A stretch of 30,650 nt of DNA from a virus. The stretch's first letter is position 1. Every line of letters starts with the position of its first letter. Made by a program: the position numbers and the translations under genes. Under the pieces are notes generated by a model that was not told the DNA's origin, made no database searches, and was given only the letters and a program-made list of their open reading frames with translations. This document shows, piece by piece, positions 11,068 to 28,672 of the stretch. The stretch lies in IMG/VR virus record IMGVR_UViG_3300035698_015122, positions 1-30,650 of that record; one strand, given 5' to 3'.

Positions 11068-12126
11068 TTAACATACCCGCTGTTTGACATAAAGTGTAAG
11101 ATAATGAGAAACAAACATTACCAATTGAGTTTCGTGAACAGTCTTCAAACTATATGCACTAGGTAATGAATGAATCAAATTAACAATTCTCTCTCGAACA
11201 GTATAGGTTCCAATCTTCTGATTGGACTCTATCTTTCTTATTAATAGAAGTCGCTTTGATTCAACACATACGTTCTTTAAATTGGCTAATCGGTGCATCA
11301 ATATAACAATGAATTGAATATGTTCTTTATAATCAGGATTAGCCATCTCAGAGGCCATAACTAAACCCAACTCTTTTCTTATTCCAGATTTAATAATCGC
11401 TTTTGAAACAGCCCTCTTATCAACTTGCCCGTATGTACACATCGTCATTGCAATTTTATCAGCAATTCTCTCAAGCTTATCTTCAGTCTCCTCCGCTACT
11501 GTTTGACCGCCACCTTCTTCTGTAATCTTATAATAAACTTCGGCAAACGATTTAATTGATTGAGATAATCTTGTTCTTAGAGCATAAACCATTTTTTGTA
11601 TAGCATCATCCGTCAACCGATTACTGGCTAGAATAGATTTATATTTAATATACTCTGAATCTGCTACGTGCTTTACTGCGGATGGTATTCCATTTTTAAC
11701 CTTATATAGATGCTTATGGGATATTCTCTCCATTGCCATTGCAAATGCATCTGGCTGACAAAATTTAAATTGTCTATGCATTAGATTTGATTGAAACTTT
11801 AAAGCTAAAAATAAGAAAAACATCTGGGATATTTGAGGTTTTTTATTCCGTGCAAAAAAAATAAATGCTATAATAAGCATTATAGCTTGACTATCATTTA
11901 ATATCGAAAAGGTAGCATACTTCTTAGATATGTTTGTTTTTTTAAATTGTTTAATACTTTCAGCTGAAATATTTAAACTTGATTTTACATCTTCAAAATA
12001 TTTAATCAGCTTAGGATAATAACATGGAGTCCCAAGATTCGATAGCTCCGATCCAATTATATTAACAATCTTTCTATGGATTTTATTATCATAATGAACA
12101 TCTGGGATATAAGTAATATTGGCCAT
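11068..12126 (-). CDS. Helical protein of unknown function in the baseplate operon
   Basis: 352 residues, almost entirely helical by composition. A hydrophobic stretch at about residues 80-111 (IMLIIAFIFFARN, then QMFFLFLALKF) could be one or two membrane or buried helices. The start ATG shares one base with the TAA of the gp6-like gene (TAATG), so it is coupled to it. I see no catalytic motif. It may be a baseplate or assembly protein by context, but no family is recognised. Confidence 0.65.
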   Translation of the reverse strand: MANITYIPDVHYDNKIHRKIVNIIGSELSNLGTPCYYPKLIKYFEDVKSSLNISAESIKQFKKTNISKKYATFSILNDSQAIMLIIAFIFFARNKKPQISQMFFLFLALKFQSNLMHRQFKFCQPDAFAMAMERISHKHLYKVKNGIPSAVKHVADSEYIKYKSILASNRLTDDAIQKMVYALRTRLSQSIKSFAEVYYKITEEGGGQTVAEETEDKLERIADKIAMTMCTYGQVDKRAVSKAIIKSGIRKELGLVMASEMANPDYKEHIQFIVILMHRLANLKNVCVESKRLLLIRKIESNQKIGTYTVRERIVNLIHSLPSAYSLKTVHETQLVMFVSHYLTLYVKQRVC

Positions 12127-14735
12127 TATTTAACTTCTATTGAAATTGTTGAGGTATCGAAATAAACAAGCTCGGGTGAGTATTCTAAAAGCTGAGTCTG
12201 TGTGAAATCTTCATATATATCATAATCGAAAAATATATCATGATTTGGAGAAACAAGTTGACAATGCTCAACACCAGAAACTGATTGCACTAATTTAATT
12301 ATCTCCGATTTGTAGAAGGGTTTATCATATCCGAAACGCGTATATAAATTTGATATTAAGTCTTCTCTAATCTTTGCAGTTAAAGCTTGTGTACTAATCG
12401 AAGAATTCATATCTTTCCATACTATAAGGCGGATTGTAAATGGTATATTAATCGTCGGGTCTACCATATCTTCTCCATTGTATATATACATTGTTTCCGT
12501 ATCATCGTCATAAATCATGTTATTGATAGCAAGACCATAATAGGTCCAAACCGAAGATGCACCAACCCATTCCGCCACAAAGGGTATGCTCCTAGTAGTC
12601 GGAAAATCATGGTGTATATCAGTAATTAAGTACTGATCACCATTAGTTGGTCCTACTGGAACACCAATTGGATCAAGGCCTTCAACCGTATATTTTCTTT
12701 TATTGAAATACATGTTTTTCAAAAGACCTGTAGTGTTAGCAAATTTTAGATTCAAAAAATCAGTAAGCATTCTATAATTGATCACATTAAATGCAATAAT
12801 TTTCTGCATGACAGTTAAGTTAAAATTATCTTGGTCAAAATCAGGATCATCATAATACTCAGTTAAAATAACCGGAACATCGTAAACAATATTCTCATAA
12901 GTTGGAGGATCCAATGCTGACTTCACCTGACTATACATATATTCAGATAGATTTCGTTTTACGATAGCACTACTATATGCTGTAAAATAAATTTCTTCTG
13001 CAGGTGCCAATGGATCACCATAATACATTCTAAACTTAAATATCTGTTCTCCATTTGGAACATCAGTTAACGGGATACTAATTTTAAAATTAGTATTGAC
13101 TGTAGTAGAAGAATCATAATAATGCACCATATCTACTTCTACTTCATCCCAGCCTTGTATAAGTACACATTTTAAATGCGCAAAATCATACCCAGGAGTT
13201 GTATCTATTACTTGGTAATTTAAAGTTACCCACAATAAATCATTATCAGTATCGTCCAAATCTCGTTCGGTCTGGAGATTTACATAAGAGGGCAACACCT
13301 TAGTATCTGCCGTTTCAGTACTTGCTAATGTGACTGCAAGATCTATATCAGATAATACATAAAAATATGTACAATCTTGAGTTAATGGATTAATCTCCAT
13401 ATCAAACATTGTCTGATAGTCTACCCAATTTGGAGCAATTACTGTCCCCTGATTTATTGAAATAGAATAACCAGATGGGAAAATCTGTGATCCAGTTGAA
13501 TCGAATGACAATGCAACATTTCGTGTTGGGACCACGGTATCTTCATAAAGAAGATCCGTAAACAAAGAGATTTCATTTCGTTTTATATCCGATCTTTTAA
13601 GAATCGGGGTAGCATGATTCACTGGAAGATCGTCTACAATATATTTTATATTAGTATAATCTAACTCTGATACCAACCGTTCTGCTGCAGGAACTCTTGC
13701 TAAGGCTGCAGTACGAATTTCATCAATCGTTTGAGATGATATACCACCAATGGCAGGAGTTGTATTAATAACATTCATCTTAACAGGCCTGGAAAGCAAC
13801 GACCCCGACACCAAAACATCGACGTATATATTATCAGCTTTAGTGATCGACCCTGCAATTACATTACCATCGAGCCCTTGTGTTGTATATAGATTAATTC
13901 GACATAACTGACCTGAATCAGGCTGCCGACCAATAACGCCATTGCCAAAATAAATTCTTCCTCCGGTTGCTGTCTGTCTATATACATAACCCTTAGTACT
14001 AGTAGGAATTTCGAAAAGTGAAGAATAACGTTCCCAGGGGTCTCCCTCTTCACCAAGCGCAGAAGATAACTCGACAATTTCAATCTCTGAAAGGGATCCT
14101 TCGAATTCAATATCAATATTATAAAATTCAAATGGTTCTAAATTAGGAATTTGATATCCAAGAGTTTGTAATTCTTCCTGTCTGGCATCAACAGAAAAAA
14201 AGATTTCAGACTTATCATCATTATATTGAAACGGGATACTTTTAACAATAGTGTCGTCCTCATCTCCAACTTCTTCATATTGTTCAAGACGCTGAGACAT
14301 AGTTAATGGTATTTGAGGATTAATGAGATCAAGTCTGATTTTATTTGATTGCGAGAAAACAATATCGCCAGCATAATATTTAAAATCTTTAGGAATTATA
14401 ATATTAGTAGTACTCTCGAACGATGTCGGCACCCCGACTAAAATCGAAACAGTCGATGGACTCGCATCGGGGGGAGGATAACCCAACATTGTTGATAAGT
14501 TTAATACAGACTCTTTTTGAATAGCCTTTGTTAGGAAGAATTCTCTGCTCACTGAAGAATTATAATACATTAAATTAGCCGTGAGCATAGACATCATGTT
14601 CACTAGATATGATAAGTACGACGTCTTACTTAAATCTATATCATCTAATTCTAGATATTCAGACATGTAGTCAATCATTTGCTGTCTTATTTTATCTCTA
14701 TCAGAATATATTTCTATCGAACTCTCGTCAAACAT
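12126..14735 (-). CDS. Baseplate wedge protein, gp6/J-like
   Basis: 869 residues. The N-terminal 120 residues (DYMSEYLELDDIDLSKTSYLSYLVNMMSMLTANLMYY...) match the start of T4 gp6 and baseplate J proteins: acidic helix, then a helical segment ending in EFFLTKAIQKESVLNLSTMLGY. The middle contains VYRQTATGGRIYFGNGVIGRQP (about 250-271), typical of the J/gp6 core where a beta strand precedes FGNG. The segment IDEIRTAALARVPAAERLVSELDYTN (about 340-365) is also characteristic. In the family gp6 forms the iris of dimers around the baseplate hub that triggers sheath contraction. The ATG directly follows the stop of the endonuclease, with GAGGGG as ribosome binding site. Confidence 0.85.
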   Translation of the reverse strand: MFDESSIEIYSDRDKIRQQMIDYMSEYLELDDIDLSKTSYLSYLVNMMSMLTANLMYYNSSVSREFFLTKAIQKESVLNLSTMLGYPPPDASPSTVSILVGVPTSFESTTNIIIPKDFKYYAGDIVFSQSNKIRLDLINPQIPLTMSQRLEQYEEVGDEDDTIVKSIPFQYNDDKSEIFFSVDARQEELQTLGYQIPNLEPFEFYNIDIEFEGSLSEIEIVELSSALGEEGDPWERYSSLFEIPTSTKGYVYRQTATGGRIYFGNGVIGRQPDSGQLCRINLYTTQGLDGNVIAGSITKADNIYVDVLVSGSLLSRPVKMNVINTTPAIGGISSQTIDEIRTAALARVPAAERLVSELDYTNIKYIVDDLPVNHATPILKRSDIKRNEISLFTDLLYEDTVVPTRNVALSFDSTGSQIFPSGYSISINQGTVIAPNWVDYQTMFDMEINPLTQDCTYFYVLSDIDLAVTLASTETADTKVLPSYVNLQTERDLDDTDNDLLWVTLNYQVIDTTPGYDFAHLKCVLIQGWDEVEVDMVHYYDSSTTVNTNFKISIPLTDVPNGEQIFKFRMYYGDPLAPAEEIYFTAYSSAIVKRNLSEYMYSQVKSALDPPTYENIVYDVPVILTEYYDDPDFDQDNFNLTVMQKIIAFNVINYRMLTDFLNLKFANTTGLLKNMYFNKRKYTVEGLDPIGVPVGPTNGDQYLITDIHHDFPTTRSIPFVAEWVGASSVWTYYGLAINNMIYDDDTETMYIYNGEDMVDPTINIPFTIRLIVWKDMNSSISTQALTAKIREDLISNLYTRFGYDKPFYKSEIIKLVQSVSGVEHCQLVSPNHDIFFDYDIYEDFTQTQLLEYSPELVYFDTSTISIEVK

Positions 14736-16385
14736 TTATTTCCCCTCTCTCGCCCACTTATAAACATTACAACCACAATCCCAAATTCGATCATACCCAT
14801 TAAGTTGCATATTCTGCCATTCAGTCAATTCTGGATCAAATGTATCTAATATATTGTGGAGTTTGTGTTTTTGAAATTTAATACGGGAATATCTCTTTCT
14901 AGAATTTTTAAAATAATGATACGCCGGTGGCGCGGAATGTTGAAATTGAAAACCAGCTTTGAGGTATGACTCGCCTTCACCATACCGCCTGTCTGCATAA
15001 GTCAACAAACTCTTAATATCTAAGTTCAGTATTCCGTATTTTATTAATCTACTAAGACCACCAACTACTACCGAATCAGAACAGTTCGTAAATCTCAAAA
15101 TTTCCCATTCAACATTTTTATTAAACCTAGATTTACCAAATGTTATGATTGACACTATCGCGCCTTTATATTTTAATCCAAAATGACGACCACTGACCGA
15201 TCCCTGAATATGATATTCGTCTAAAAGTTTCTTAGCTTCATCTCTTGGAATATCTATAATTTGACATTTTCGCGCAAATATTCGTTCACTACATTTATTC
15301 AAACGATAACGTATAAATCGTTCAACAATAGATTGATTATACACCCACTCATCTTCAAATATCTGAATTAGATCTACGTCCTCTTTAATTGCTTTAATTG
15401 TTTTATCTATATGATATTTTTTATCGCACCCGGATCCTTCTCTATGCCAATATAAACCATGAACTTCAATTCCTAATTTATGATCTGGAAGATATATATC
15501 TATCTCTTTACCATCTAATACAGTTCGATCATTGATTATAATATTATCAGTTAATTCACGACAATATTTTACAATTTCAGATTGAAGCTGCGACATATAA
15601 AGAGGATAACATATTGTACATCTTGGTATAGATCCATTTTTAATATTATCGAATATCATATTCCCACATTCATTACATACCCACCAATGAGCCACATATA
15701 CACCTTGATATGAATCTAAATTAAACAATGGACGACATGAACCTTGTAATCTATTCTCGTATAGTTGATCATAAAAATTAGTTTTACGAGTCTGACGTAT
15801 TTGTTTTTGAATCTGAGGGTTCTGATATGGATGTTTAAATCCATATCTTTTCAGATTTGTCGCAAAGCTCTTTTCTTGAATATGTTGATTCTGCATAACA
15901 TTTGAGACTCCATATCGAGTTTGGACTGTATTGCGACTTTTCATCTGAATATCTTTATTACTAAGTGGTGTCTTATAACCGTATCGTTCAATATTGGTGG
16001 CTTCTCTTTTTAACTGAAATTTCTTAATCGACATAATATGATCAACACCATACCTACACTTAATTGTATCTTTCTGTTTTTGCTTAATAACTTCATTCTG
16101 CATAGGATGAGAGCCATATTTTCTCATAAACACATCAGAGGTTTTTTGTTTTTTGTTTTTACATGAGTTGCTACATTTAACTGAACAATATCGTTTATAC
16201 CCTTCTGTCAAACTTATAAATTTAGGTTCATTATCACACCCATCTTTTTCACATATCGACGGAGTCAAATCAATGTATTTATCATAATAATATTGAGGTT
16301 TAATCTTATGGCGCTGGGTTAAATGTGAAGATAACCCAGCGCCATTCTTATATTCCCGATTACATATTTGACATTGTAATTTCAC
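14736..16385 (-). CDS. Free-standing homing endonuclease, EDxHD (Vsr-like) type
   Basis: About 549 residues from GTG 16385. An in-frame ATG at 16457 would overlap the upstream gene by 62 bases, so I prefer the GTG. Domains in order: a C2H2-like zinc finger (CQIC...H...H, residues 5-26), a second Cys cluster (about 45-75), five repeats of about 23 residues built on RYG...QN..IQ.K (about 88-200, probable DNA-binding repeats of the DUF723 kind), a four-Cys zinc site (237-259), then the nuclease EIDIYLPDHKLGIEVHGLYWH with Glu294, Asp296, Glu307, His309 and His314. A Vsr-like fold is known for this family. It lies between the HAD and gp6 genes and is likely a mobile gene inserted in the baseplate operon. 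Endonuclease 2 has the same plan. Confidence 0.8.
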   Translation of the reverse strand: MKLQCQICNREYKNGAGLSSHLTQRHKIKPQYYYDKYIDLTPSICEKDGCDNEPKFISLTEGYKRYCSVKCSNSCKNKKQKTSDVFMRKYGSHPMQNEVIKQKQKDTIKCRYGVDHIMSIKKFQLKREATNIERYGYKTPLSNKDIQMKSRNTVQTRYGVSNVMQNQHIQEKSFATNLKRYGFKHPYQNPQIQKQIRQTRKTNFYDQLYENRLQGSCRPLFNLDSYQGVYVAHWWVCNECGNMIFDNIKNGSIPRCTICYPLYMSQLQSEIVKYCRELTDNIIINDRTVLDGKEIDIYLPDHKLGIEVHGLYWHREGSGCDKKYHIDKTIKAIKEDVDLIQIFEDEWVYNQSIVERFIRYRLNKCSERIFARKCQIIDIPRDEAKKLLDEYHIQGSVSGRHFGLKYKGAIVSIITFGKSRFNKNVEWEILRFTNCSDSVVVGGLSRLIKYGILNLDIKSLLTYADRRYGEGESYLKAGFQFQHSAPPAYHYFKNSRKRYSRIKFQKHKLHNILDTFDPELTEWQNMQLNGYDRIWDCGCNVYKWAREGK

Positions 16386-16395
16386 TATATTTCTA

Positions 16396-16998
16396 TTATC
16401 CAAATAGTTGTTTATATAAACCAACTCTCGGTAGAGCTGATTCTTCCATCTCTTCATCTTCTACTTCATCTTCTACTTCATCATCAACTTCTTCTACATC
16501 CTCAAGTTCTTCATCTATTTCTTCTTCTTCATCCTGATCTTCTTCGCTAGCCTCATAAATATAAGATTCGGGAGAACCAAATACTCTTTCATAGAGATTG
16601 CCTTCTTTAAATGTTCCACCAGGAGAATCTTTACCGAATTCACTAGGCGGTCTTTCTCCTGCTTGTTGCCCATCATCACCACCAGCCTCTGGCTCATTTT
16701 TCATCATATCAGGAGCACTTGCTTTTCCAGCATCAGCCTTGGCTAATTGCATTTGCCCTTCTGGAGTTTTTTCATTAGGATCACCAGCAGTATCTCCATC
16801 TTCACCAGCTTCAGATGGGTGTTCCATATTTTCTGGACCCTGTTTCACGGGGTTCTTGGGTTTATCTGAAGGAATGCCTTCATCTCTTATTCCTGCGACA
16901 CCGGGGCGACCGTTCACACCAGCTTCTTCACCCTCATAATCGACAACTCCATCTGCTCCAGCTTCTCCAAAAATTTGTTTATAAAGTTTACCAGTCAT
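16396..16998 (-). CDS. Possible internal-start product: acidic scaffold-like protein
   Basis: Inside the HAD gene, AAGGAG stands 8 bases before an in-frame ATG at 16998, a better ribosome binding site than that of the full gene. The product would be 200 residues: low complexity, very acidic at the end (about 300-330 of the parent is almost all Glu/Asp), with the hydrophobic motif LYKQIFG at its start, LYERVFG in the middle and LYKQLFG as its last residues. Acidic internal proteins of this kind occur in T4 prohead cores (gp22, gp67). It could be made together with the full fusion. Evidence is the ribosome binding site and the domain boundary only. Confidence 0.4.
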   Translation of the reverse strand: MTGKLYKQIFGEAGADGVVDYEGEEAGVNGRPGVAGIRDEGIPSDKPKNPVKQGPENMEHPSEAGEDGDTAGDPNEKTPEGQMQLAKADAGKASAPDMMKNEPEAGGDDGQQAGERPPSEFGKDSPGGTFKEGNLYERVFGSPESYIYEASEEDQDEEEEIDEELEDVEEVDDEVEDEVEDEEMEESALPRVGLYKQLFG

Positions 16999-17430
16999 TA
17001 CATTTTCTCCTTGAATAATATTGCTTATTTGTTTATTCTCATTTAAAAAATCATCTTCTGAAATATTCAAACTACCAGGGGTAGCTGAAACCGATTCCAG
17101 AACAAGTTTGGGCTTACCTAATATCTTACCAGTATTTCTCTCAACTTGTACTGCGCGATCATCAATAATCATTGCTATATCTGGAGTCTTGATATTCGTA
17201 ATCTTCAAATGACCAAGACTATATTTTTCCAACCATTTCTTAATAACTGGAATGTGTGATGGATTAGTTGCTCTTGCTGTAAATATAATAACTCTCTGAC
17301 CCTTTGAATCCCACTTCTTAACCATATCCATAATTGGCTTAATGGGTTCACCAATATACTTTCTCTGTGCATATCCAGGCTTATATTCTGCTAATGTCGA
17401 ATCTAAATCTACTGCGATTGTTTTACCCAC
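16396..17430 (-). CDS. HAD-superfamily phosphatase fused to an acidic repeat protein
   Basis: 344 residues, start GTG at 17430. Residues 1-110 are a HAD hydrolase: AVDLDSTLAEY (6-16) gives the DxDxT nucleophile motif, IIFTARATN (48-56) motif II, and AMIIDDRAV (86-94) the acidic motif IV. The size and sequence fit the small phage HAD family that acts on phosphomonoesters; the substrate is unknown. Residues 121-131 (LNISEDDFLNE) resemble the leader peptide of the neighbouring small genes, including an L-N-E ending. From 145 on the protein is low-complexity: Gly/Pro/Glu-rich, then a Glu/Asp run (296-330). Three copies of LY(K/E)(Q/R)hFG stand at 149, 279 and 338. YIYE at 290-293 is another [I/L]-x-E site. 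The fusion of a phosphatase with an acidic scaffold-like tail is unusual. Confidence 0.75.
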   Translation of the reverse strand: MGKTIAVDLDSTLAEYKPGYAQRKYIGEPIKPIMDMVKKWDSKGQRVIIFTARATNPSHIPVIKKWLEKYSLGHLKITNIKTPDIAMIIDDRAVQVERNTGKILGKPKLVLESVSATPGSLNISEDDFLNENKQISNIIQGENVMTGKLYKQIFGEAGADGVVDYEGEEAGVNGRPGVAGIRDEGIPSDKPKNPVKQGPENMEHPSEAGEDGDTAGDPNEKTPEGQMQLAKADAGKASAPDMMKNEPEAGGDDGQQAGERPPSEFGKDSPGGTFKEGNLYERVFGSPESYIYEASEEDQDEEEEIDEELEDVEEVDDEVEDEVEDEEMEESALPRVGLYKQLFG

Positions 17431-17433
17431 TTC

Positions 17434-17859
17434 TTATTTCCGTTTCTTACTTAATTCTTTATCAAGAAGTCTCTTAGGTAGAATATCAACAGTAATAAGT
17501 TTATACTTCTTCAACAATACACCCATTTTCGCTTCAACACCTGCAATTACTGCTCCAGTCCCTATAAGTATTGATGCATTAGGAGATACAGCTGAGACTA
17601 CTCCAGATGCTGCTGCTGCACCTTTTGCGGTAATTTTCGAAACTACTAACATCTCTCTAAGAAAATCTTCTTTCGCTTTAATTTTACTTTTTTTAACTTT
17701 AGCATTGTGATCTTCTTTAATTCGTTCTTCTATATACTTAATTAACTTCTACACTCGCATTTTTTTATATATTTTTCCGAATACCGCTCCAAATATTGCA
17801 GAAATACCTACATCTAACAAACTACCAGATTCTTCGATATATACTTCTGAAATATACAC
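17434..17859 (-). CDS. Leader-tagged small protein with an in-frame amber codon
   Basis: From GTG 17859, after AAGGAGAGGAG, one frame runs to TAA at 17434 with a single TAG at 17749-17751. The first part is 36 residues: the leader MYISEVYIEES, then a Gly/Ala hydrophobic helix. After the TAG the frame continues KLIKYIEERIKE and further for 105 residues: a charged helix, an Ala/Gly/Val-rich hydrophobic segment (AAAASGVVSAVSPNASILIG) and a basic end. This overall plan (leader, hydrophobic, charged, Gly/Ala, basic) is like the intact neighbour at 17880-18266. The part after the TAG has no good start; its first ATG (17652) touches a weak AGAGAG. It may be read through, be a decayed gene, or contain a sequence error. 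Confidence 0.5.
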
Positions 17860-17879
17860 TCGTTTCTCCTCTCCTTAAA

Positions 17880-18266
17880 TTATTTTCCTGGCCATGTACC
17901 ATCTTTCTTCATCTGTTTATAATTCTGATTACCCTTCATACCTGCAACAATCCCGGTACCAGCACCAATCGCAGCACCCTTCTTAGCACCCCGTTTAGCT
18001 GATCCTTTAGTTTTTTTAAGTAATTCTTTGAGTTCATTTAGTTTTATTTGTAATCGTTTTCGTTTTGAAGAATCTTTAACTTTTCTAAGTTCAGATTCTA
18101 TTTGTGAAATGGCACTCTGATATTCATTTTTTTTAATCTTTCCATGTATTGCACCCACTGCAGCACCAATACCAGCACCCATTAAACCTTTAACAATTAC
18201 ATTCAACCCCATAATAATTGAAGCCGATTTGAAGGATTCTTCGATATATGTTTCTGATATGTACAT
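17880..18266 (-). CDS. Leader-tagged small protein with glycine-zipper segments
   Basis: 128 residues, ATG after GAGGAG. It starts MYISETYIEES, the clearest copy of the leader, with I-E-E at residues 8-10 followed by Ser. A hydrophobic Gly-rich segment comes next (about 18-44, IIMGLNVIVKGLMGAGIGAAVGAIHG), then a charged coiled coil (48-85), a second Gly/Ala segment (AKKGAAIGAGTGIVAGMKG, about 93-111) and a basic tail. If the leader is a capsid-targeting sequence, a prohead protease would cut after residue 10. The glycine-zipper stretches suggest membrane interaction or tight packing, perhaps after ejection. No enzymatic motif. Confidence 0.7.
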   Translation of the reverse strand: MYISETYIEESFKSASIIMGLNVIVKGLMGAGIGAAVGAIHGKIKKNEYQSAISQIESELRKVKDSSKRKRLQIKLNELKELLKKTKGSAKRGAKKGAAIGAGTGIVAGMKGNQNYKQMKKDGTWPGK

Positions 18267-18285
18267 TTGTTTCTCCTCTTCTTTA

Positions 18286-18441
18286 TTAATTTAAATTCTT
18301 ATAAGTATGTCCTCCAGTATACTTAGGATCTCCAGCATCTATCTTAAGACCTGCGTCAAGTGCTTCAATCATCCCTTCCGTCTTCCTAATTTTCATCTTA
18401 TTCAACAACCCTTCTTCAATAAAACTTTCTGAAATATACAT
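18286..18441 (-). CDS. Leader-tagged 51-residue protein
   Basis: ATG at 18441 follows AAGGGGG, and the frame ends in TAA at 18286. It begins MYISESFIEEG, with I-E-E at 8-10, and continues with a short charged helix (GLLNKMKIRKTEGMIEAL) and a Gly/Asp/Tyr-rich tail (GDPKYTGGHTY). After removal of the leader only about 41 residues would remain. The last codons overlap a promoter-like GGACATACTTATAAG for the next gene. Too short for family recognition; the leader and ribosome binding site support it as real. Confidence 0.65.
   Translation of the reverse strand: MYISESFIEEGLLNKMKIRKTEGMIEALDAGLKIDAGDPKYTGGHTYKNLN
18298..18315 (-). promoter_or_regulatory. Late-promoter-like motif, variant
   Basis: On the minus strand GGAGGACATACTTATAAG, a variant of AAGGACAAATTATAAA with the same GGACA and TATAA parts spaced one base wider. 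It lies about 32 bases before the ATG of the leader gene at 18266 and inside the end of the previous gene. Confidence 0.35.
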
Positions 18442-18470
18442 AACTACCCCCTTTATAATAAATAATAGAT

Positions 18471-18863
18471 CTAATCCTGATAACGAATTAGATTACGCAC
18501 CAACATATTTAAATCAAGTATTCCGCCACCTAAAATTTTAATATAATACATAATATCTTTACCAACTTCTGTTTTTTCGCCAGTTTTAAGCAATATAGGT
18601 TTAACTAAATTTAAATACATAGTAAATCTTTTTTCATATAAATCTATCACCTTTAATAGATCTTGTCGGTTTTTTGCTTTAAATAACTCTGAAGTTTGCC
18701 GCATTCCTAAATTATAATCAAGTTCTTTCCTCTTCAATCCACCAGATTTTGTCAACTTCACAATTTCATTATATTTTTCAGTATTTAAAACAAAATATTG
18801 TCTCCAGGCCCGATTCGCATTTTTAAACTTTAAAAGACCATTTCTAATTTGAGAATCATCCAC
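18471..18863 (-). CDS. Body frame of a frameshifted leader-tagged protein
   Basis: The frame from GTG 18863 gives 130 residues of charged, helical sequence ending in TAG, with no family recognised. The GTG has no ribosome binding site at a useful distance. The same frame is open upstream to 18980, adding about 39 codons of coherent sequence (INNAKDVPKIQKVVKNRIGD and on). It lies in the -1 frame of the leader ORF at 18956-19063, which stops right after a TTTTAAAA slippery site. A -1 shift there would give one protein of about 200 residues: leader, short Gly-rich linker, long helical body. I regard the independent start as less likely than the fusion. Confidence 0.6.
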   Translation of the reverse strand: MDDSQIRNGLLKFKNANRAWRQYFVLNTEKYNEIVKLTKSGGLKRKELDYNLGMRQTSELFKAKNRQDLLKVIDLYEKRFTMYLNLVKPILLKTGEKTEVGKDIMYYIKILGGGILDLNMLVRNLIRYQD

Positions 18864-18955
18864 CCCTTTAAATTCAGAAGAATTAATAAACTGTTTTATA
18901 TCTCCTATACGATTTTTAACAACTTTTTGAATCTTTGGAACGTCTTTTGCATTAT

Positions 18956-19063
18956 TTATTTTAAAAGCACTCCCACGTCTTTAAATAATACCGCATCTTT
19001 CATACTACCAGCAACACCTCTCAATATTCCTTCTTTAATAAATTGCTCTGATGTGTAAACCAT
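18956..19063 (-). CDS. Leader ORF ending at a slippery site
   Basis: ATG 19063 follows TAGGAG and encodes 35 residues starting MVYTSEQFIKEG, a leader copy with I-K-E at residues 9-11. It ends ...GVLLK then TAA. The last codons are CTT TTA AAA TAA, so the heptamer T TTA AAA stands in the right phase for -1 slippage, just before the stop. After slippage reading continues ATA AAT AAT GCA into the long open body frame. It is therefore probably the 5' part of a two-frame gene. Confidence 0.6.
   Translation of the reverse strand: MVYTSEQFIKEGILRGVAGSMKDAVLFKDVGVLLK
18959..18966 (-). other. Candidate -1 frameshift slippery site
   Basis: TTTTAAAA read on the minus strand as ..CTT TTA AAA TAA. The phase fits the X XXY YYZ rule (X=T, Y=A, Z=A). 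The following stop codon is the kind of pause signal that helps slippage. I did not find a clear stimulating hairpin immediately downstream. Confidence 0.45.
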
Positions 19064-19094
19064 TTGATTCTCCTAAATATTTAATTGTTTATAT

Positions 19095-19114
19095 TGTATA
19101 AGTATGTCCTCTTC
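19095..19114 (-). promoter_or_regulatory. Late-promoter-like motif, variant
   Basis: On the minus strand GAAGAGGACATACTTATACA, nearly identical in its core to the element at 18298-18315. It lies about 32 bases before the ATG at 19063, the same distance as for the other leader gene. Confidence 0.35.
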
Positions 19115-19157
19115 ACTTATAGGCACTTGATTTTCTTAGATCAGTAATATATAACCA

Positions 19158-19445
19158 TTATCCAGTAACTTGTATATTACCACCCTGCATAGTTCCAGTT
19201 CTCTTCTTGCTTCCAGGCATATTGCTCAATAGATCATTTAGATATGTTATTCTATCTTTAGATCTACGTATTTCTAATTCTATTCGCCTAGATCCAGCTT
19301 CATCTTTCCTAATGGATGCATCGGACTTACTAACCTTCAATTTCTCATATCTTCCTTTTTCTATAGCCTTTTGTTCACGAATACGATTCCTACGTAACTT
19401 TTGTGAGTCTGTAAGTTCATTTAAATATTGTTCCGATGTATACAT
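19158..19445 (-). CDS. Leader-tagged basic coiled-coil protein
   Basis: 95 residues, ATG after AAGGAG. It begins MYTSEQYLNELTDSQ, with L-N-E at 8-10. The rest is a highly charged helix (Lys, Arg and Glu over about residues 16-75) and a short Gly-rich end. There is no membrane segment, unlike its neighbours. A basic, soluble, helical protein with such a leader would suit an internal, DNA-associated head protein. That is inference; the sequence shows only the leader and composition. Confidence 0.7.
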   Translation of the reverse strand: MYTSEQYLNELTDSQKLRRNRIREQKAIEKGRYEKLKVSKSDASIRKDEAGSRRIELEIRRSKDRITYLNDLLSNMPGSKKRTGTMQGGNIQVTG

Positions 19446-19469
19446 TTGATATCACTCCTTAAAATACAT

Positions 19470-19687
19470 TTATTTTTCATCTCTCTTTGATTTATAATAT
19501 TTTCCAGCCTTATATACTCCATATGCACCAGCCGAAGCTAGGCCTGCAACTCCTGCACCTTTACCCACTTTTACGGATGATTTACCGATTTTAGCGACTT
19601 TCTTCTTTACAATTTGTGAAGCTCGAGTTAATTTCTCTTTTGCCCTGAATAGTGTTTTCTTGGCATATAATATAGTCCTCTGTTTTT
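19470..19687 (-). CDS. Out-of-frame continuation of the leader gene at 19996
   Basis: In the -1 frame of the leader ORF 19628-19996, coding-like sequence runs to a TAA at 19470. It holds a basic helix (LYAKKTLFRAKEKLTRASQ), a Gly/Ala hydrophobic segment (GKGAGVAGLASAGAYGVY) and a charged end. The Gly/Ala segment plus basic tail mirrors the C-terminus of the intact protein at 17880-18266. There is no start codon with a ribosome binding site in this frame. The switch point is near the A5 run at 19683-19687. Fused, the protein would have about 175 residues. Confidence 0.45.
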
Positions 19688-19996
19688 CAATTGAGATTGA
19701 GCTGCCGTAATCTGATCTATATTTTTCTTTGCATCTCCAGCTATTTTTGTGGCCCTTCGAATTTGTTCTTTCATAATATCTATATTTCTTTTAGCTTGAT
19801 CCATGCCTCGTTTATCATTTGCCGCTTTAAAACCAACATATAAATTACGATTTTTTTGAAGTTTTTTTGTTAATCTTTCAAGTTCCGTTACAGCATTAAT
19901 TTGTGCAGTCATTTTATTAAAGCGGGCGTTTAGTTTTTTTATTTTTTTATTCACTTCATTTAAATCTTCACATAGGTATAATCCTGATATATACAT
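19628..19996 (-). CDS. Leader-tagged coiled-coil protein, apparently frameshifted near its end
   Basis: 122 residues in its own frame. ATG after CAGGAG. It begins MYISGLYLCEDLNE, with L-C-E at 8-10, followed by a long coiled coil (residues about 15-105, many Lys, Asn, Gln and Ala). The last 17 residues after QLKNR are unlike the rest (GLYYMPRKHYSGQKRN), and the -1 frame carries a better continuation to 19470. The sequence TTG AAA AAC could have lost one A from AAAAAA, or could slip by -1. The first gene after the 219-residue structural protein, 7 bases from its stop. Confidence 0.65.
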   Translation of the reverse strand: MYISGLYLCEDLNEVNKKIKKLNARFNKMTAQINAVTELERLTKKLQKNRNLYVGFKAANDKRGMDQAKRNIDIMKEQIRRATKIAGDAKKNIDQITAAQSQLKNRGLYYMPRKHYSGQKRN

Positions 19997-20002
19997 TTGA
20001 TA

Positions 20003-20662
20003 TTACTCCTGAAAATACATTCCTGTTGAATGAAATAGATTATGGGATTGAGTCTGCAAATCTTCATGTCGACTCTGAAGTTTTAAAAGTACGCTTGCTG
20101 CTTGAATTTGGTGTATTCGTTTTGTTAGTTCTAAAAACATATATTGCCCTGAAACTTGATTCTCTAAATCCATAAGTGTATTTGCAGAAGTAACTTCTAA
20201 AGAAAGTTTGAGATAATTTATAGATCCCTGTGTCGAATTATCAACATTTCTAACTACATATATAGGCGAAAAATCAGATTGATCAAACATAAACTTTTGT
20301 GAAAAATGAACAATATCCCACGCAGTTACCTTTAATCCATATTCTGATGGTATCACGATAGATATTATATCACTATCTTTTGATGTTAACCCCTTCTCAT
20401 CTGCGGTTGTCTGGGGTTGAAGTGTTTCGGTCCAGTAAACTGGTAACATCTGAATCTTATTCCATCTCATGCCTGATAGCTGACCTACACCATGTCGTTC
20501 ATATGAGCCTGCCATCATATCTCTATCGTAGACACTATTAGACCAATCGATATGATAAAAGGTCACGGGATAAGCTGTTAATAATTTATGCGCAGCATAT
20601 CTATTCTGTGTCCAGTACCAATCGGAAATATAATTAAAACGCCTTATTCCAGGATTACTCAT
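20003..20662 (-). CDS. Virion structural protein of the baseplate region
   Basis: 219 residues. The ATG shares a base with the gp25-like stop (TAATG). It is rich in aromatic residues in the first half (WYWTQNRYAAHKLLTAYPVTFYHIDWSNSVYDRD is broken here as WYWTQNRY near 18-25 and TAYPVTFYHIDW near 29-40), then beta-rich, and ends in a helical segment (about 165-205). No membrane segment, signal peptide or catalytic motif. Coupling to gp25 suggests a baseplate wedge or neck component. I do not recognise a defined family. Confidence 0.6.
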   Translation of the reverse strand: MSNPGIRRFNYISDWYWTQNRYAAHKLLTAYPVTFYHIDWSNSVYDRDMMAGSYERHGVGQLSGMRWNKIQMLPVYWTETLQPQTTADEKGLTSKDSDIISIVIPSEYGLKVTAWDIVHFSQKFMFDQSDFSPIYVVRNVDNSTQGSINYLKLSLEVTSANTLMDLENQVSGQYMFLELTKRIHQIQAASVLLKLQSRHEDLQTQSHNLFHSTGMYFQE

Positions 20663-21084
20663 TATTTAGTTACACTCCTTAATAAGGATTCGTTTATATC
20701 AACAGATAGTTCTTTCTTCTCACCTCTATATGATATAAATAAATTTACTATAAACCCCTTCCTATTATTATAGAACAACACATTATAAGATATATCACCT
20801 CTACTCTCATATCTTTTAATCGAGCGTTCTAATTCCATATAGATATCTTGTCTAGTAATCTTGTCTGTGGGTTCAAATATATACTTATATATATCACAAC
20901 CGTATTCCGGATCAGCTATATAAGTTCCTCTAGCCGTGAGAAGTAGATTTTCTATACTCTTAACCAAAACGTCGATATTATCGAGTTGTTTCAAATCACC
21001 TTGTACCCCAATCTTAGCATCAACATCAAGTATTTCAGCCCGACGCCCTGGAATAGTTTGAAAAAATTTCTCTAAATCCGCCAT
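20662..21084 (-). CDS. Baseplate wedge subunit, gp25-like (GPW/gp25 family)
   Basis: 140 residues, the usual length for T4 gp25. The family core is visible: a helix with LVKSIENLLLTARGTYIADPEYGCDIYKYIFEP cut here to its key parts, IENLLLT (45-51), DPEYGCDIYKYIFEP (58-72), then a helix ending ERSIKRYESRGDI (about 86-98) where E.R is the conserved mark. A beta hairpin closes the domain. gp25 sits at the start of the sheath on the baseplate wedge and nucleates sheath polymerisation. ATG follows AGGAG, and a late-promoter-like element lies about 20 bases further upstream. Confidence 0.85.
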   Translation of the reverse strand: MADLEKFFQTIPGRRAEILDVDAKIGVQGDLKQLDNIDVLVKSIENLLLTARGTYIADPEYGCDIYKYIFEPTDKITRQDIYMELERSIKRYESRGDISYNVLFYNNRKGFIVNLFISYRGEKKELSVDINESLLRSVTK

Positions 21085-21104: not shown

Positions 21105-21120
21105 ATATAAATTTGTCCTT
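21105..21120 (-). promoter_or_regulatory. Late-promoter-like motif
   Basis: On the minus strand AAGGACAAATTTATAT, very close to the consensus, about 20-35 bases before the gp25-like ATG. It overlaps the last codons of the endonuclease gene, so the gp25 operon has its own promoter even behind the inserted endonuclease. Confidence 0.45.
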
Positions 21121-22687
21121 ACATATTATGGAACAGATAACACCCACAGTCCCAAATTCGATCATATCCATTCAATTGAAGATTCTCCCACGCGGTTAGA
21201 TTATCATCATATAATGATAGTTTATTTTTCAATAAATGCTTTTGAAATCTCATTCTATTATATCGAATAGTATATGAATTATTAATAACTTGAGGGGACG
21301 GTGGAGTTGTTCGAACTAACTTCCAATCAGTTTCAGAATATGATAAGCCATGAGAATATCTACGATCAACATAAGAGACAAGTGGTTTATTTATATTCTT
21401 TTTATAATGAGACATGATCTTTGAAAAGCCGCCTCTAATATTGGTATTTTTCTTAGAGCAGAATCGTAATAATTCGACTTGTTTTGTTTTAGAAAATCTT
21501 GTATTCCCAAATGAAGCCACTGCAATTAACTCGTAATTATGATATAACCCATAATGTTTACCAACAATGGGGCCCTGGAGATGATTTGTATCTAAGAACA
21601 CTTCAGCCATAGGATTAAGTACGTGTTTGATAATACACTGTCTGGCATTGTACTGCTGCTCTATACGCCCCAATCTATAATCAATCATACTAAGAACGAT
21701 TTCTCTCTTATTCAACCATTCATCTTCAAATATATGAAATATATTTACACCCTTTGATAAAGCCTTTTCTGTTTTATTAATATGATATCGATTGCCTTTC
21801 TTTCCGGAGATTTCACTGTGCCAATATAAACCATTAAATTCAATACCAAACTTTTGATCCGGAAAATATAAATCTATCTCAAGACCATCCAATACAGTCT
21901 TATCGTTTTGAATGATATTAAATCTATCGCTATATAATTCATAGAGTTCGTTCTCATATGAAGAAATTGGTAGATTCAATGGATAACAATTTAAACACCG
22001 GGGGATTCTTCCATCTTTTAACACATCTATAAATTCAGATTCACACTTCATGCATCTCCACTTGTATGTATCAGTAGTTTTATTGTAATCCCCAACTTCA
22101 AATAAAGGTTTACATTTTGATTGTAGTCTCTCAGAAGTAATTAATCGATTGAAAAAATCCAATCGTTTTGTTTCTCGAGATTTCTCTTTCATTCCCTCAA
22201 TATAGGAAGTCCAATCTACACCATATTTCTTTTGACATGTTTTGTGTATTTTATTTTTAACTTCTGAATTTTGGATCGGAAAACGAACACCATATCGCTT
22301 TAAAGTCGTATCCTGCATTTTCTTCTGTACTTCTTTAGAACAACTAGGCGCAGAACCTCCATATAATATAATATTTGTTTCTTTACGTTTCTTTTGAAAA
22401 TCTGGGTCGATTGATCCACATTGTGAAGAACAATAAGTCCTATATCCTTTTTGAAATGATATAAACGACGTAGGTATAGAACACATCTTACATTCTGGTT
22501 TTATATTTTGACAAAAGAGAAATAAATATATTAATTCTGGATTTGAAGTGATACCCGGGTTTAGGAATTTAATATAATCCAAAAACCCAGGTATAATCTT
22601 TAATTTGTATATCAACTTTCTTGCACCAATGTTCTTCAGATCTCGTCCAAACTCACTGTATAAATACTCAATTATAGTTTGTGTCAT
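21119..22687 (-). CDS. Free-standing homing endonuclease 2, EDxHD (Vsr-like) type
   Basis: 522 residues; the ATG shares one base with the preceding TAA. It has the same plan as the endonuclease at 14736-16385: a Cys cluster (C66, C69, C86, C90), three RYG-type repeats (about 108-170), a four-Cys zinc site (C212, C215, C231, C234), then TVLDGLEIDLYFPD and GIEFNGLYWH with Glu270, Asp272, Glu283 and His290. The C-terminus ends with NLQLNGYDRIWDCGC, nearly the same as in endonuclease 1. It lacks the N-terminal C2H2 finger and has its own N-terminal region instead. It stands between the hub-assembly genes and gp25, so it too is a likely mobile insertion. Its native target is probably a nearby structural gene in related phages lacking it. 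Confidence 0.8.
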   Translation of the reverse strand: MTQTIIEYLYSEFGRDLKNIGARKLIYKLKIIPGFLDYIKFLNPGITSNPELIYLFLFCQNIKPECKMCSIPTSFISFQKGYRTYCSSQCGSIDPDFQKKRKETNIILYGGSAPSCSKEVQKKMQDTTLKRYGVRFPIQNSEVKNKIHKTCQKKYGVDWTSYIEGMKEKSRETKRLDFFNRLITSERLQSKCKPLFEVGDYNKTTDTYKWRCMKCESEFIDVLKDGRIPRCLNCYPLNLPISSYENELYELYSDRFNIIQNDKTVLDGLEIDLYFPDQKFGIEFNGLYWHSEISGKKGNRYHINKTEKALSKGVNIFHIFEDEWLNKREIVLSMIDYRLGRIEQQYNARQCIIKHVLNPMAEVFLDTNHLQGPIVGKHYGLYHNYELIAVASFGNTRFSKTKQVELLRFCSKKNTNIRGGFSKIMSHYKKNINKPLVSYVDRRYSHGLSYSETDWKLVRTTPPSPQVINNSYTIRYNRMRFQKHLLKNKLSLYDDNLTAWENLQLNGYDRIWDCGCYLFHNM

Positions 22688-22912: not shown

Positions 22913-24001
22913 TTATGAGAGGCTAACCATTCGAAAGAATTGTGCTGCTATGTTAACGTCCATTTCATTATCTAAACCACACTTTATACATTCATAGTGA
23001 CTCTTCACATCAATCCCATATATACCATAGTTATCTTGATACGCTTCCATAATTTTAATCTTATCTTGAGGTGGAAGTGATTGATATCCCATGAAAATAT
23101 CTTCTCTCTCGATTACCAACATCGCTGGTGATTTATCGCCGTCTTTATATTGCTCAAATCTTTCTATAATCAATGTTTCATTAACCAAGTCACCATGTTT
23201 CTTAGTAGCAAAAGCTAAGTCTTTTAAGAGTTGTTCTTCATGCCAAACAGTAGGTTGACGTACTATCGCTATAACATTAGAGATTGGAAGAGTAACTGAC
23301 TGCATATCTGATAAAATTGCAAGTTGATTCTCATCACTAGCAGGCTGTTGTTGTTCCAGTGGTTGAACTGATTTTGGAGTATTCGCATGTAGCTTATTAG
23401 TTATAGGTTTGGGTTGTATCGGTTTTTCAGTTGCTTTCTTTCCAACTGTCAACCCATCATCCTCATCTACTGCATCGATTGCGCGGTTATTATTAGTTGG
23501 AACTGCGGTAGGTACGGGTTTCTCTTTGGAGCTTGTTTCTACAATTGCAGCTTCTATCTCGGGGTCTATATCTGCATCGCCAGCCGCTTTAGCAATAGTA
23601 TATGACTTTTTCATAGCTTCCGATTTAGGATAAGCATTTATTGAAAATGCTTTACTTAGAGTTAATTTAATTAGTTGTTCATGTCCACAACCCTCACATG
23701 AAACCTGGAATTCCCGTTCATCTCCAAATGTTACGTGATACAATCCATAAAGTAAAGCTTCTCTATCTTGTGTGGTAATACTCTTCTTTAACATAATCGG
23801 ATCTGTAATGTAATCGGGCTTAGATTGTATACATTTAAATAGAATATCAGTTACTACCATATGGGCTCTATTAGGAGATATTAGAGATGTCTTCATCTCA
23901 TTAACCTCTGCCACTGTCATTGATCGCACATCGAACGTCTGCCCGGTCTGCGGTGTTACTACCGTATAGCTAGGTAGCTTAAAATTAAAACCTTTAAACA
24001 T
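22913..24001 (-). CDS. Baseplate hub assembly protein, gp26-like, with split zinc ribbon
   Basis: 362 residues, ATG after GGAGGGG. The N-terminal 120 residues (FNFKLPSYTVVTPQTGQTFDVRSMTVAEV...) and the C-terminal 120 residues fit the T4 gp26/gp51-type baseplate hub assembly family. A CEGCGHE knuckle (C102, C105) and a CIKCGLD knuckle (C338, C341) could together form a zinc ribbon. Between them lies a Pro/Thr/Gln-rich disordered insert (about 155-228). No membrane segment. Such proteins help form the baseplate centre and are not always in the virion. Position between tube and baseplate genes agrees. The family is assigned on pattern, with moderate certainty. Confidence 0.6.
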   Translation of the reverse strand: MFKGFNFKLPSYTVVTPQTGQTFDVRSMTVAEVNEMKTSLISPNRAHMVVTDILFKCIQSKPDYITDPIMLKKSITTQDREALLYGLYHVTFGDEREFQVSCEGCGHEQLIKLTLSKAFSINAYPKSEAMKKSYTIAKAAGDADIDPEIEAAIVETSSKEKPVPTAVPTNNNRAIDAVDEDDGLTVGKKATEKPIQPKPITNKLHANTPKSVQPLEQQQPASDENQLAILSDMQSVTLPISNVIAIVRQPTVWHEEQLLKDLAFATKKHGDLVNETLIIERFEQYKDGDKSPAMLVIEREDIFMGYQSLPPQDKIKIMEAYQDNYGIYGIDVKSHYECIKCGLDNEMDVNIAAQFFRMVSLS

Positions 24002-24522: not shown

Positions 24523-25242
24523 TTATTCTACATATGCAATTGATGCTGCTCTATCGCCAGTCAAATCAGAAACATAAGTCAGACAATTAGCATAAACCCA
24601 ATCTTCATGAAACATATAATCAACATTAAAATCAATATCAAGTTCCAATTTATCATAAGCTGTAATATCCCCACCATACTGATCCTGAGGGTCTTTTAAC
24701 GGAAACAACCCAGTCATACAATTGTAATATTCAATTGTTTGAGCATCTGGTTTTGTGGTCCAGTAATATACAGCAGTACTATAGTTTGATTTTGTATAAT
24801 CATCGTCTCCATTAACCATAATTTCAGAAACACCATTACGGTAATCTCTCATAAGTCTTACCCACCCGTGAAATATTTTAAGAATTGGAAGAGATGAGAA
24901 CTCGAGAAACTTAAATGTTACAGTATTGTCAAATTCAACATTGGTAGGCACTGAAAACTTAGTTCCACCAAGGCCTGTAAATTCTGCCTTATTAACAGTT
25001 CCGCCAGGAATAGTTACAGACAAACAAGATGATTCTAAAATTTGTGGAACATTTTTCTCATCTGCAATTCCAGCTCTGCCTGGAGATTGAGCAATTGCCG
25101 TTTGTACCTTTTTAAACGTCGGCGTTGAAGGCCAATGTGTGAAAAAATATCCAGAGACATAGGGGTCAACAGCATCTTTATTTGATCCGCCCCATTTACG
25201 ACTAAATCTGTTTTCTCCAATTACTGAATAGCTGCTTTGCAT
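24523..25242 (-). CDS. Tail tube protein
   Basis: 239 residues from ATG 25242, preceded by GGAGG 7 bases upstream; a TTG two codons before is less likely. The sequence begins with a loop region (YSVIGENRFSRKWGG) and has the tube-type beta-barrel pattern SCLSVTIPGGTV (about 72-83), TVTFKFLEFSSLPILKIFHGWVRLMRDY cut here to FKFLEFSSLPILKIFHGWV (about 108-126), and a C-terminal LELDIDFNVDYMFH, as in T4 gp19-like tubes. It forms the rigid inner tube through which DNA passes. Single-gene transcript: late-type promoter, long leader with hairpins, terminator after the stop. The product name rests on fold pattern and on the nearby sheath gene. Confidence 0.7.
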   Translation of the reverse strand: MQSSYSVIGENRFSRKWGGSNKDAVDPYVSGYFFTHWPSTPTFKKVQTAIAQSPGRAGIADEKNVPQILESSCLSVTIPGGTVNKAEFTGLGGTKFSVPTNVEFDNTVTFKFLEFSSLPILKIFHGWVRLMRDYRNGVSEIMVNGDDDYTKSNYSTAVYYWTTKPDAQTIEYYNCMTGLFPLKDPQDQYGGDITAYDKLELDIDFNVDYMFHEDWVYANCLTYVSDLTGDRAASIAYVE

Positions 25243-25270
25243 TTTCAATCCTCCATGAAATGTATATGAT

Positions 25271-26928: not shown

Positions 26929-28617
26929 CTATTTTATAAACAGATTTAGACTGATCTGCTCTACTACTTTCGTAGGTCTCAAAGTTACATTGCAGTGAAA
27001 TTGTTTCGCCTTTAGTTCGTATTCAGTTGCGGCAACACTGACTTCATAACTGTAAAGCCCTCTTTTATTTTTGATAACTTTAAGAAATGAATCTACTTCG
27101 TTTCTCACCTTCTGCCATGTGTACTGATCATTCAATTCAAAAATATAGAATTTACAGAATTGCTCAAGAGCCCGCTTGATATAAAGAACTAGTCTCATAA
27201 CATTGAAGTCTTGAAGTGCAGATGGTCTCTTCTGTGTCGTAAGCTGTCCCCAAACAGTGTATCCCACGTTGAACTTAACAATAGGATTAAGCTGTTGTAA
27301 GTACATTAGCTCACGTTCACCCTGGAGAGGAGAGAATCTAAGCTCTTTAATGGTAGCCACAGTCGCTCTATTAAAGCCAGCGGGAGCATACCAAAGTTCA
27401 GCTACATTCTCAGTATATGGTATAATATTAGCCATATGGTAAACAGGAGTGATCCATATATCGCGACCTGTAAATAAATCGAATATCTTTGAATATGGTT
27501 CATACATTGCCAAATATCTAGTATTAAAAGTGTGGTCATCAGCTCTAGCTGCCAACGACTGAGTCACATTATAATTATCACCATTATCTATAACTCCAAT
27601 ACAATCACGTCTGGTAGTTGTAAGAACATAACAACCATTTGTTTTGACATCTGTATTATAACCACCATCTAATACAATACTGAAATATACATTATCGATG
27701 TCTAATACTTCTGTAAGATAATCACCATCGGTTTTCTCTAACAGACCAGTATAAGCTTTGATAAGTAGTTCATCAGCAACGGTAGGAACAACATTACCTC
27801 CAGAAAACAATTCTCCAGAAGTTCCACCATCAGTTCCGACAGCGCCACTCCGAAACGGTTGTGACCAATCCGCTCTATCATTTACATCTGCTTGTAAACA
27901 AACATCTCTATTTGATTTACATCTGAGAAATCTTGAGAATCTATTAATAACATCTTCTATATACATAGACTCAGCTGAATCATCAACGTCTCTGTAATCA
28001 AAAGAAACTTCGTATGATTCAATAATTTCATACTGATCAGCCCCAGTCTCATCTTCTTCATCTTGCAATTGAAGAATATCTAAAATATACACACCCTCTC
28101 TCTGAGGATTCGCATGTTGGGATATATCAATCTGAAAGTTGTTGTACCATTCACCGCGACCAATACCATATATAACTATACAGTTCTCAGGATTCTGAGT
28201 TGTGCTTACAAGAGTATCTAATTCATTTTCATTATTAATAGATAGATTCCAATCAACACTTATATCAGCAGTACCATCTAATCCTAAACCACTACCTCCC
28301 GCCGTTTCTGCTTTGAGAATTAAATTAGCATATGTAGCATTTGTAGGAAGACAACGAACCGTATAAAGAACATCAGATTCTTTCATAAAAGATCCGGCAA
28401 CATATGGTCCTTGACTAACCTGTTTTGCATATGTTCCACCATAAAGAATATTTGGCTCACCGTAATCTATATAGAAATCTCTATTGTTTGTAGCTATCAA
28501 TTTGTTATCTTCTCCTCTTTCGGAGATGATCGGTAAGAATCCAATCGTACTCGGAACATTTCTTACATATTCTGAGAGATCAATAATTTTCGTGTATACA
28601 CCTGGACTTACTGCCAT
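26929..28617 (-). CDS. Contractile tail sheath protein
   Basis: 562 residues from ATG 28617, preceded by GAGGAGG; the TTG at 28644 in the same frame lies before this ribosome binding site and is not used. The N-terminus AVSPGVYTKIIDLSEYV is the classic sheath start (SPGVY...D.S). A variable middle follows (about 150-330, with a VSFDYRDVDDSAES region). The C-terminal part has RDCIGVID (about 324-331), FNRATVATI (about 406) and FNVMRLVLYIKRALEQFCKFYIFELND (split: FNVMRLVLYIKRALEQF, then YIFELND), the conserved interlocking C-terminal domain. The protein forms the outer tail sheath and contracts on infection. It stops in TAG with a TAA seven codons later, before a terminator. Confidence 0.9.
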   Translation of the reverse strand: MAVSPGVYTKIIDLSEYVRNVPSTIGFLPIISERGEDNKLIATNNRDFYIDYGEPNILYGGTYAKQVSQGPYVAGSFMKESDVLYTVRCLPTNATYANLILKAETAGGSGLGLDGTADISVDWNLSINNENELDTLVSTTQNPENCIVIYGIGRGEWYNNFQIDISQHANPQREGVYILDILQLQDEEDETGADQYEIIESYEVSFDYRDVDDSAESMYIEDVINRFSRFLRCKSNRDVCLQADVNDRADWSQPFRSGAVGTDGGTSGELFSGGNVVPTVADELLIKAYTGLLEKTDGDYLTEVLDIDNVYFSIVLDGGYNTDVKTNGCYVLTTTRRDCIGVIDNGDNYNVTQSLAARADDHTFNTRYLAMYEPYSKIFDLFTGRDIWITPVYHMANIIPYTENVAELWYAPAGFNRATVATIKELRFSPLQGERELMYLQQLNPIVKFNVGYTVWGQLTTQKRPSALQDFNVMRLVLYIKRALEQFCKFYIFELNDQYTWQKVRNEVDSFLKVIKNKRGLYSYEVSVAATEYELKAKQFHCNVTLRPTKVVEQISLNLFIK

Positions 28618-28672
28618 AACTGTTTCCTCCTCGCTTATATTCAAATAACGTGATATTAAAAAGTCCTCTTTC

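Follow-up and report, generated by a model that had tools for sequence, protein, structure and literature searches.

Why should six small genes within the baseplate operon of a phage begin with the same ten residues? The question is raised by a 30,650-bp IMG/VR virus fragment (IMGVR_UViG_3300035698_015122; the whole fragment is called the window here), in which an island of six small minus-strand genes lies between a conserved baseplate-region gene and the gene for a gp6-like baseplate wedge protein (Table 1). An initial annotation had noted the common N-terminal peptide and had likened it to the capsid-targeting sequence of T4 internal proteins. All six leaders were found at their places on the minus strand, and each is an N-terminal peptide of ~10 residues ending in [I/L]-x-E, with the consensus M-Y-[I/T]-S-E-x-[Y/F]-[I/L]-x-E. 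One of them, MYISEVYIEE (17859), starts with GTG rather than ATG. By analogy with T4, we consider it probable that the shared 10-11 residues are a T4-like capsid-targeting and processing tag on an arsenal of accessory proteins that would be injected into the host.

A ribosome-site-like purine run, mostly AGGAG-like, precedes all six genes. The leader codons differ between the copies (TAT/TAC, ATA/ATT/ATC, TCA/TCG, GAA/GAG) while the residues are fixed, and the conservation is thus at the protein level. The small bodies behind the leader are basic (isoelectric point (pI) 9.2-10.6), as had been noted from the sequence, and they are unrelated to each other: BLAST among the leader proteins gave no similarity between the window bodies. 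These bodies belong to no known family and have no Pfam or PHROG match to the T4 internal proteins (IPs) or Alt.

Relatives were found by scanning IMG/VR with a DNA pattern of the leader. Two contigs, G001 and G002 (201 and 183 kb), have common segments that are ~100% identical but stand in permuted order; the best reading is that both derive from a single phage of ~266 kb. Their tail proteins are 35-57% identical to those of the window and stand in the same order. G006, a third phage (236 kb), is about as close to the window (sheath 60% identical), and a further T4-like fragment (G004) carries a single leader gene, MYISELFLPE. Once looser variants are counted, the 266-kb phage has ~15 leader genes, and at least 6 are present in G006. 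Other matches to the leader pattern (L004, L034, L035, L037/L041) were judged to be due to chance, the first three from their gene content, and five matches in GTDB, mostly short reading frames, were taken as chance as well. A scan of IMG/VR with the single gp25 sequence detected no relative, nor did a search among cultured phages with the gp6-like and 865-residue proteins. G001, G002 and G006 also have multi-subunit RNA polymerase-like genes in two diverged sets, identified from sequence only; leader genes and homing endonucleases interrupt one of the sets.

Chance can be excluded as the origin of the shared leader, because both a profile and a pattern are enriched at N-termini relative to internal positions. 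With a profile built from the six window leaders alone, none of the 155,963 internal positions reaches the scores of ten N-termini of G001/G002 and six of G006 (five genes, one of which enters twice with neighbouring Met codons). In G001/G002 the leader pattern is present at 13 of the 303 N-termini, where column shuffles predict 0.05, and at none of the 1,459 internal Met. A stricter motif search across all open reading frames (ORFs) placed 17 of 19 matches at or near the leader start. The two exceptions are at residue 7 of a G006 protein and inside window ORF 16396-17430, where the leader-like stretch NISEDDFLNE (~17067-17038) stands between a HAD-like and an acidic part and may be an internal processing site. 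The acidic part itself contains LYKQIFG-like motifs three times.

The leader behaves as a module. The SNF2 helicase of G002 carries it; the G006 ortholog (54% identical) does not, and its gene starts ~14 bases past the preceding gene. In a DsrC-like protein (L028:5291-5656; G002 122291-122656) the leader abuts the protein's own Met (MFISEQYLTE/MSVTV), as if it had been placed in front of a complete gene; this protein lacks the C-terminal Cys of DsrC. Pfam matches among the leader proteins of the relatives include InPase (PF18823, 3e-47), SNF2 helicase (PF00176, 2e-16), DsrC (7e-24) and M48 peptidases (PF01435, 7.5e-15; another at 3e-4), with weaker matches to a PrsW-like protease (sub-threshold), a GNAT domain and a papain-like amidase. 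The proteins with MYISE-type leaders are single-domain or have no assigned domain, and range from 51 to 654 residues. Leader bodies have a mean charge per residue of 0.045, versus 0.002 in other proteins (P=7e-5). The domains described in proteins that phages carry in the virion and inject include InPase, SNF2, GNAT and metallopeptidase, and InPase-domain proteins are considered likely to be packaged in virions (PMC5512222). Beyond general SNF2 helicase models, PADLOC yielded no defence match that was convincing, and single-sequence structure prediction of the papain-like leader protein yielded no usable model (predicted local distance difference test 33).

The initial annotation had objected to its own reading that the window has no protease. 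This is true of the 30-kb window, where no gp21-type (S77) protease was found, but the 266-kb relative with the same leaders encodes a T4 gp21-family protease (PF03420, S77; E 5e-11) and a gp23-like capsid protein. The protease family is also found in G004 and in the more distantly related 284-kb genome G019 (5.6e-15), one of 24 loci obtained in a scan with a sheath profile. The columns of the catalytic T4 residues His85 and Ser140 are invariant across gp21 of T4, G001 and G004, and the G001/G002 protein keeps the GE[LV][ND]HP and S-x-R-G stretches. The capsid N-termini MMKHLLNE/AY and MKHLLQE/AY have an L-x-E/A site as in T4, with the cut predicted at the slash. The G004 leader gene is located between the portal gene and a gp67-like gene, just before gp21.

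In T4, the first ten residues of IPIII suffice for packaging; residues 4 and 7 serve mainly targeting and residues 8 and 10 processing, and Asp at position 10 blocks processing while targeting is kept (PMC9026906). The window leaders match IPIII in register at residues 7 (aromatic), 8 (I/L) and 10 (E). An earlier site, I-S-E, is also present in the leader; in T4 Alt, cleavage is at I-T-E and follows residue 6 (PMC5694885). A double-Glu N-terminal pattern is found in 6 of 228 T4 proteins, namely IPII, IPIII, Alt, gp22, gp24 and 61.1; since the pattern was written after seeing the T4 leaders, its sensitivity is biased and only its specificity is informative. Of the six, five belong to the T4 head and undergo processing by gp21. 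The sixth, the product of gene 61.1 (L061:18966-19130), has the N-terminus MKTFKEFIKE, close to the IPII/IPIII targeting sequence, which makes it a candidate for a further T4 internal protein. On the window-only profile Alt has the top T4 score, in a shifted register. Membership of the T4 IPI/IPII/IPIII/Alt family itself was rejected: there is no similarity past the leader, and the IPIII N-terminus scores poorly (-5.2) on the profile.

The window profile found nothing in G019, from which the MYISE leader is absent. When all N-termini of this phage were compared blindly, however, a leader of its own emerged, MRY[R/K]LILKE[E/D], on four genes and in two looser variants, with pair scores of 38-48 versus up to ~30 in shuffles. 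Gp21 and the capsid gene precede three of the four genes, and one of the variants, by 4-9 kb. One of the proteins has a GNAT and a metallophosphoesterase domain, and this variant carries a HELAHE metallopeptidase motif (M48-like); the GNAT match, weak in G002, is strong here. Applied to T4, the blind comparison retrieves IPII/IPIII and Alt/alt.-1, along with true homologs such as the mob genes. The leader sequence thus differs from phage to phage while its length, the [I/L]-x-E ending, the basic bodies and the type of cargo stay.

From these observations we infer targeting, packaging, cleavage and ejection of the leader proteins. While the head is being assembled, the tag would dock each of them onto the core of the prohead. 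The gp21-type protease of the phage would then cut behind a Glu; E10 is the most likely site and E5 a possible additional one, since both fit an [I/L/V/T]-x-E-like motif. The mature protein, which is basic, would stay in the head with the DNA and be ejected into the host. As a modular addition to many unrelated accessory proteins, the tag would thus mark the injected arsenal. As a proposal on mechanism, the T4-like interpretation of the initial annotation is supported, and the leader is best read as a tag that is T4-like in mechanism and distinct from that of T4 in sequence.

Several findings weigh against this reading. Residue 4, the targeting Tyr of T4 IPIII, is Ser in the window leaders. 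The final Glu is not universal (MYISETYTND, MFISEDFIDD, MFISEEYIKN, MMFISEEYVT, and MEVSKDYIDK in G012); by analogy with the Asp10 variant of IPIII, the Asp-ending leaders MYISETYTND and MFISEDFIDD would be packaged but remain uncut at that site. Membrane segments are predicted in about a quarter of the leader proteins, which is unusual for head cargo. The window contains no head genes, and neither a match to gp21 nor a convincing one to the portal is seen in the G006 record, which we take to be incomplete.

The strongest rival, though an unlikely one, is that the leader sends proteins elsewhere in the infected cell, such as to the membrane or a replication compartment, or affects their stability, without a role in the virion. 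The membrane segments, the membrane-protease motifs of some leader proteins and the variable cleavage Glu would fit such a destination. Still, a hydrophobic core, as expected of a secretion signal, is missing from the leader, and its length and end match gp21-type cleavage motifs; moreover, InPase-type cargo is predicted to be virion-packaged, and the different leader of G019 clusters near head genes.

It is less probable again that the leader serves to dock or load proteins at the tail or baseplate, so that they would be tail-delivered or act as baseplate accessories. This is suggested by the setting, for the leader genes of the window and of G001 are found among gp25/gp53/gp6-like genes. The objection of the initial annotation to its own interpretation, that the window genes lie within a baseplate operon, is weakened by the relatives, in which most leader genes occupy many loci outside the tail region, beside RNA polymerase genes, a helicase and homing endonucleases. 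G006 has no leader genes between its gp25-like and gp6-like genes, that of G004 is in the head cluster, and most of those of G019 are close to it. The idea that the leader merely arose as genes were duplicated and their 5' ends recombined, with no targeting role, has the least in its favour: ~25 bases of DNA upstream of gene 1 recur before gene 2, the island has homing endonucleases on both sides and three window genes are interrupted, but the residues are fixed on differing codons and the same leader stands on unrelated bodies in three phages whose tail proteins are only ~40-63% identical.

The interrupted genes (within 17434-19996) contrast with the intact long tail genes close by; two have frame breaks and one an in-frame TAG. 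In gene 1 the frame breaks near 19675 and coding goes on in another frame to ~19470, with a Gly-zipper end. The break in gene 3 is near 18970; the ortholog in G001, a leader protein of 194 residues (MYISETYTND...), is 27% identical to the gene 3 body (18471-18863) and is uninterrupted, leader included. In a model of this ortholog residues 1-20 have low confidence and the helical body moderate confidence, so that the leader region is probably disordered. Gene 6 meets TAG after 36 codons, with the same frame open to 17434. Reassignment of TAG is an unlikely cause, as this codon terminates both the sheath gene and the largest ORF (1628 residues), consistent with the standard genetic code.

The T4-like contractile tail genes of the window are all on the minus strand (Table 1). 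The ORFs flanking the island (14736-16457 and 21119-22687, minus strand) are of a homing/HNH endonuclease type that has many copies in the relatives. The HAD ORF downstream of the island has a phosphoheptose-type PHROG match, and a sugar-kinase-like ORF (8940-9848, minus strand), presumably heptose-kinase-like, has an ortholog in G001/G002 (42% identical).

Table 1. Leader genes and their surroundings in the window, with the leader cluster of G019
Feature	Position	Strand	Remark
Sheath	26929-28644	-	
Tube	24523-25248	-	
Hub protein	22913-24001	-	
gp25-like baseplate wedge protein	20662-21084	-	
Conserved baseplate-region gene	20003-20662	-	directly upstream of leader island; gp53-like from position only
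Leader gene 1	19628-19996	-	MYISGLYLCE, basic helical body; frame 0 ends 19628
Leader gene 2	19158-19445	-	MYTSEQYLNE, 85-residue basic body, intact
Leader gene 3	18471-19063	-	MVYTSEQFIKE, interrupted
Leader gene 4	18286-18441	-	MYISESFIEE, 41-residue body, intact
Leader gene 5	17880-18266	-	MYISETYIEE, Gly-zipper/helical basic body (pI 10.5), intact
Leader gene 6	17749-17859	-	GTG start, (V/M)YISEVYIEE, 26 residues, then TAG
Open continuation of leader gene 6	17434-17748	-	past TAG; hydrophobic and basic
HAD-like ORF	16396-17430	-	HAD-like N-terminal part, then acidic low-complexity part
gp6-like baseplate wedge protein	12126-14735	-	downstream of leader island
Leader gene cluster of G019 (L099)	145394-149372		MRY[R/K]LILKE; following gp21 and capsid gene

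Only in very few phages is it known which proteins are injected with the DNA, and the genome of a giant phage specifies hundreds of proteins without known role. If the leader is a head-packing tag, an N-terminal sequence would be enough to list likely injected effectors in uncultivated phages, and the T4 capsid-targeting sequence would gain support as a general, exchangeable loading system. A wider proposal, to which we give slightly less than an even chance, is that each lineage of these giant T4-related phages uses a head-packing code word of its own (MYISExYIxE here, MRYRLILKE in G019) to load many separate, exchangeable enzymes. This arsenal, a modular counterpart of polyvalent proteins, would include membrane proteases, an SNF2 helicase, acetyltransferases and a DsrC-like protein. 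Such code words could then be read from sequence to predict injected effectors.

Among known systems, the leaders are most readily compared with those of T4 IPII/IPIII and Alt (MKTYQEFIAE, MELITELFDE). Common to both are ~10 N-terminal residues with an aromatic-[I/L]-x-Glu end and two Glu sites, the presence of one leader on otherwise unrelated accessory proteins, and a gp21-family protease, here in the relatives. The leaders described here differ in having S-E at positions 4-5, a one-residue spacer and Tyr at position 2 instead of 4; there are ~15 carriers in one phage, the bodies are not homologous to the IPs, and the cargo includes a helicase, InPase, GNAT-like proteins and an M48 peptidase. 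The G019 family resembles the MYISE leaders in its ten residues, L-x-E near the end and basic cargo with GNAT and M48-like members, and is distinguished by another leader sequence without the S-E core. The propeptides of phiKZ and SPN3US ejection proteins likewise have Glu at P1 and belong to giant-phage head cargo, but they are often long and end in S/A/G-x-E or A-x-E (PMC5694885), whereas the leaders have [I/L]-x-E with a T4-type gp21; assignment to the phiKZ/SPN3US type was rejected on this motif. The InPase, SWI2/SNF2, GNAT and metallopeptidase repertoire of polyvalent proteins (PMC5512222) overlaps the leader cargo of the relatives, although several domains are joined there in one polypeptide and the proteins here are mostly single-domain, each with its own leader. 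P1 DarB also has an N-terminal capsid signal (PMC9024508), on one giant multidomain protein where the phages studied here have separate leader proteins.

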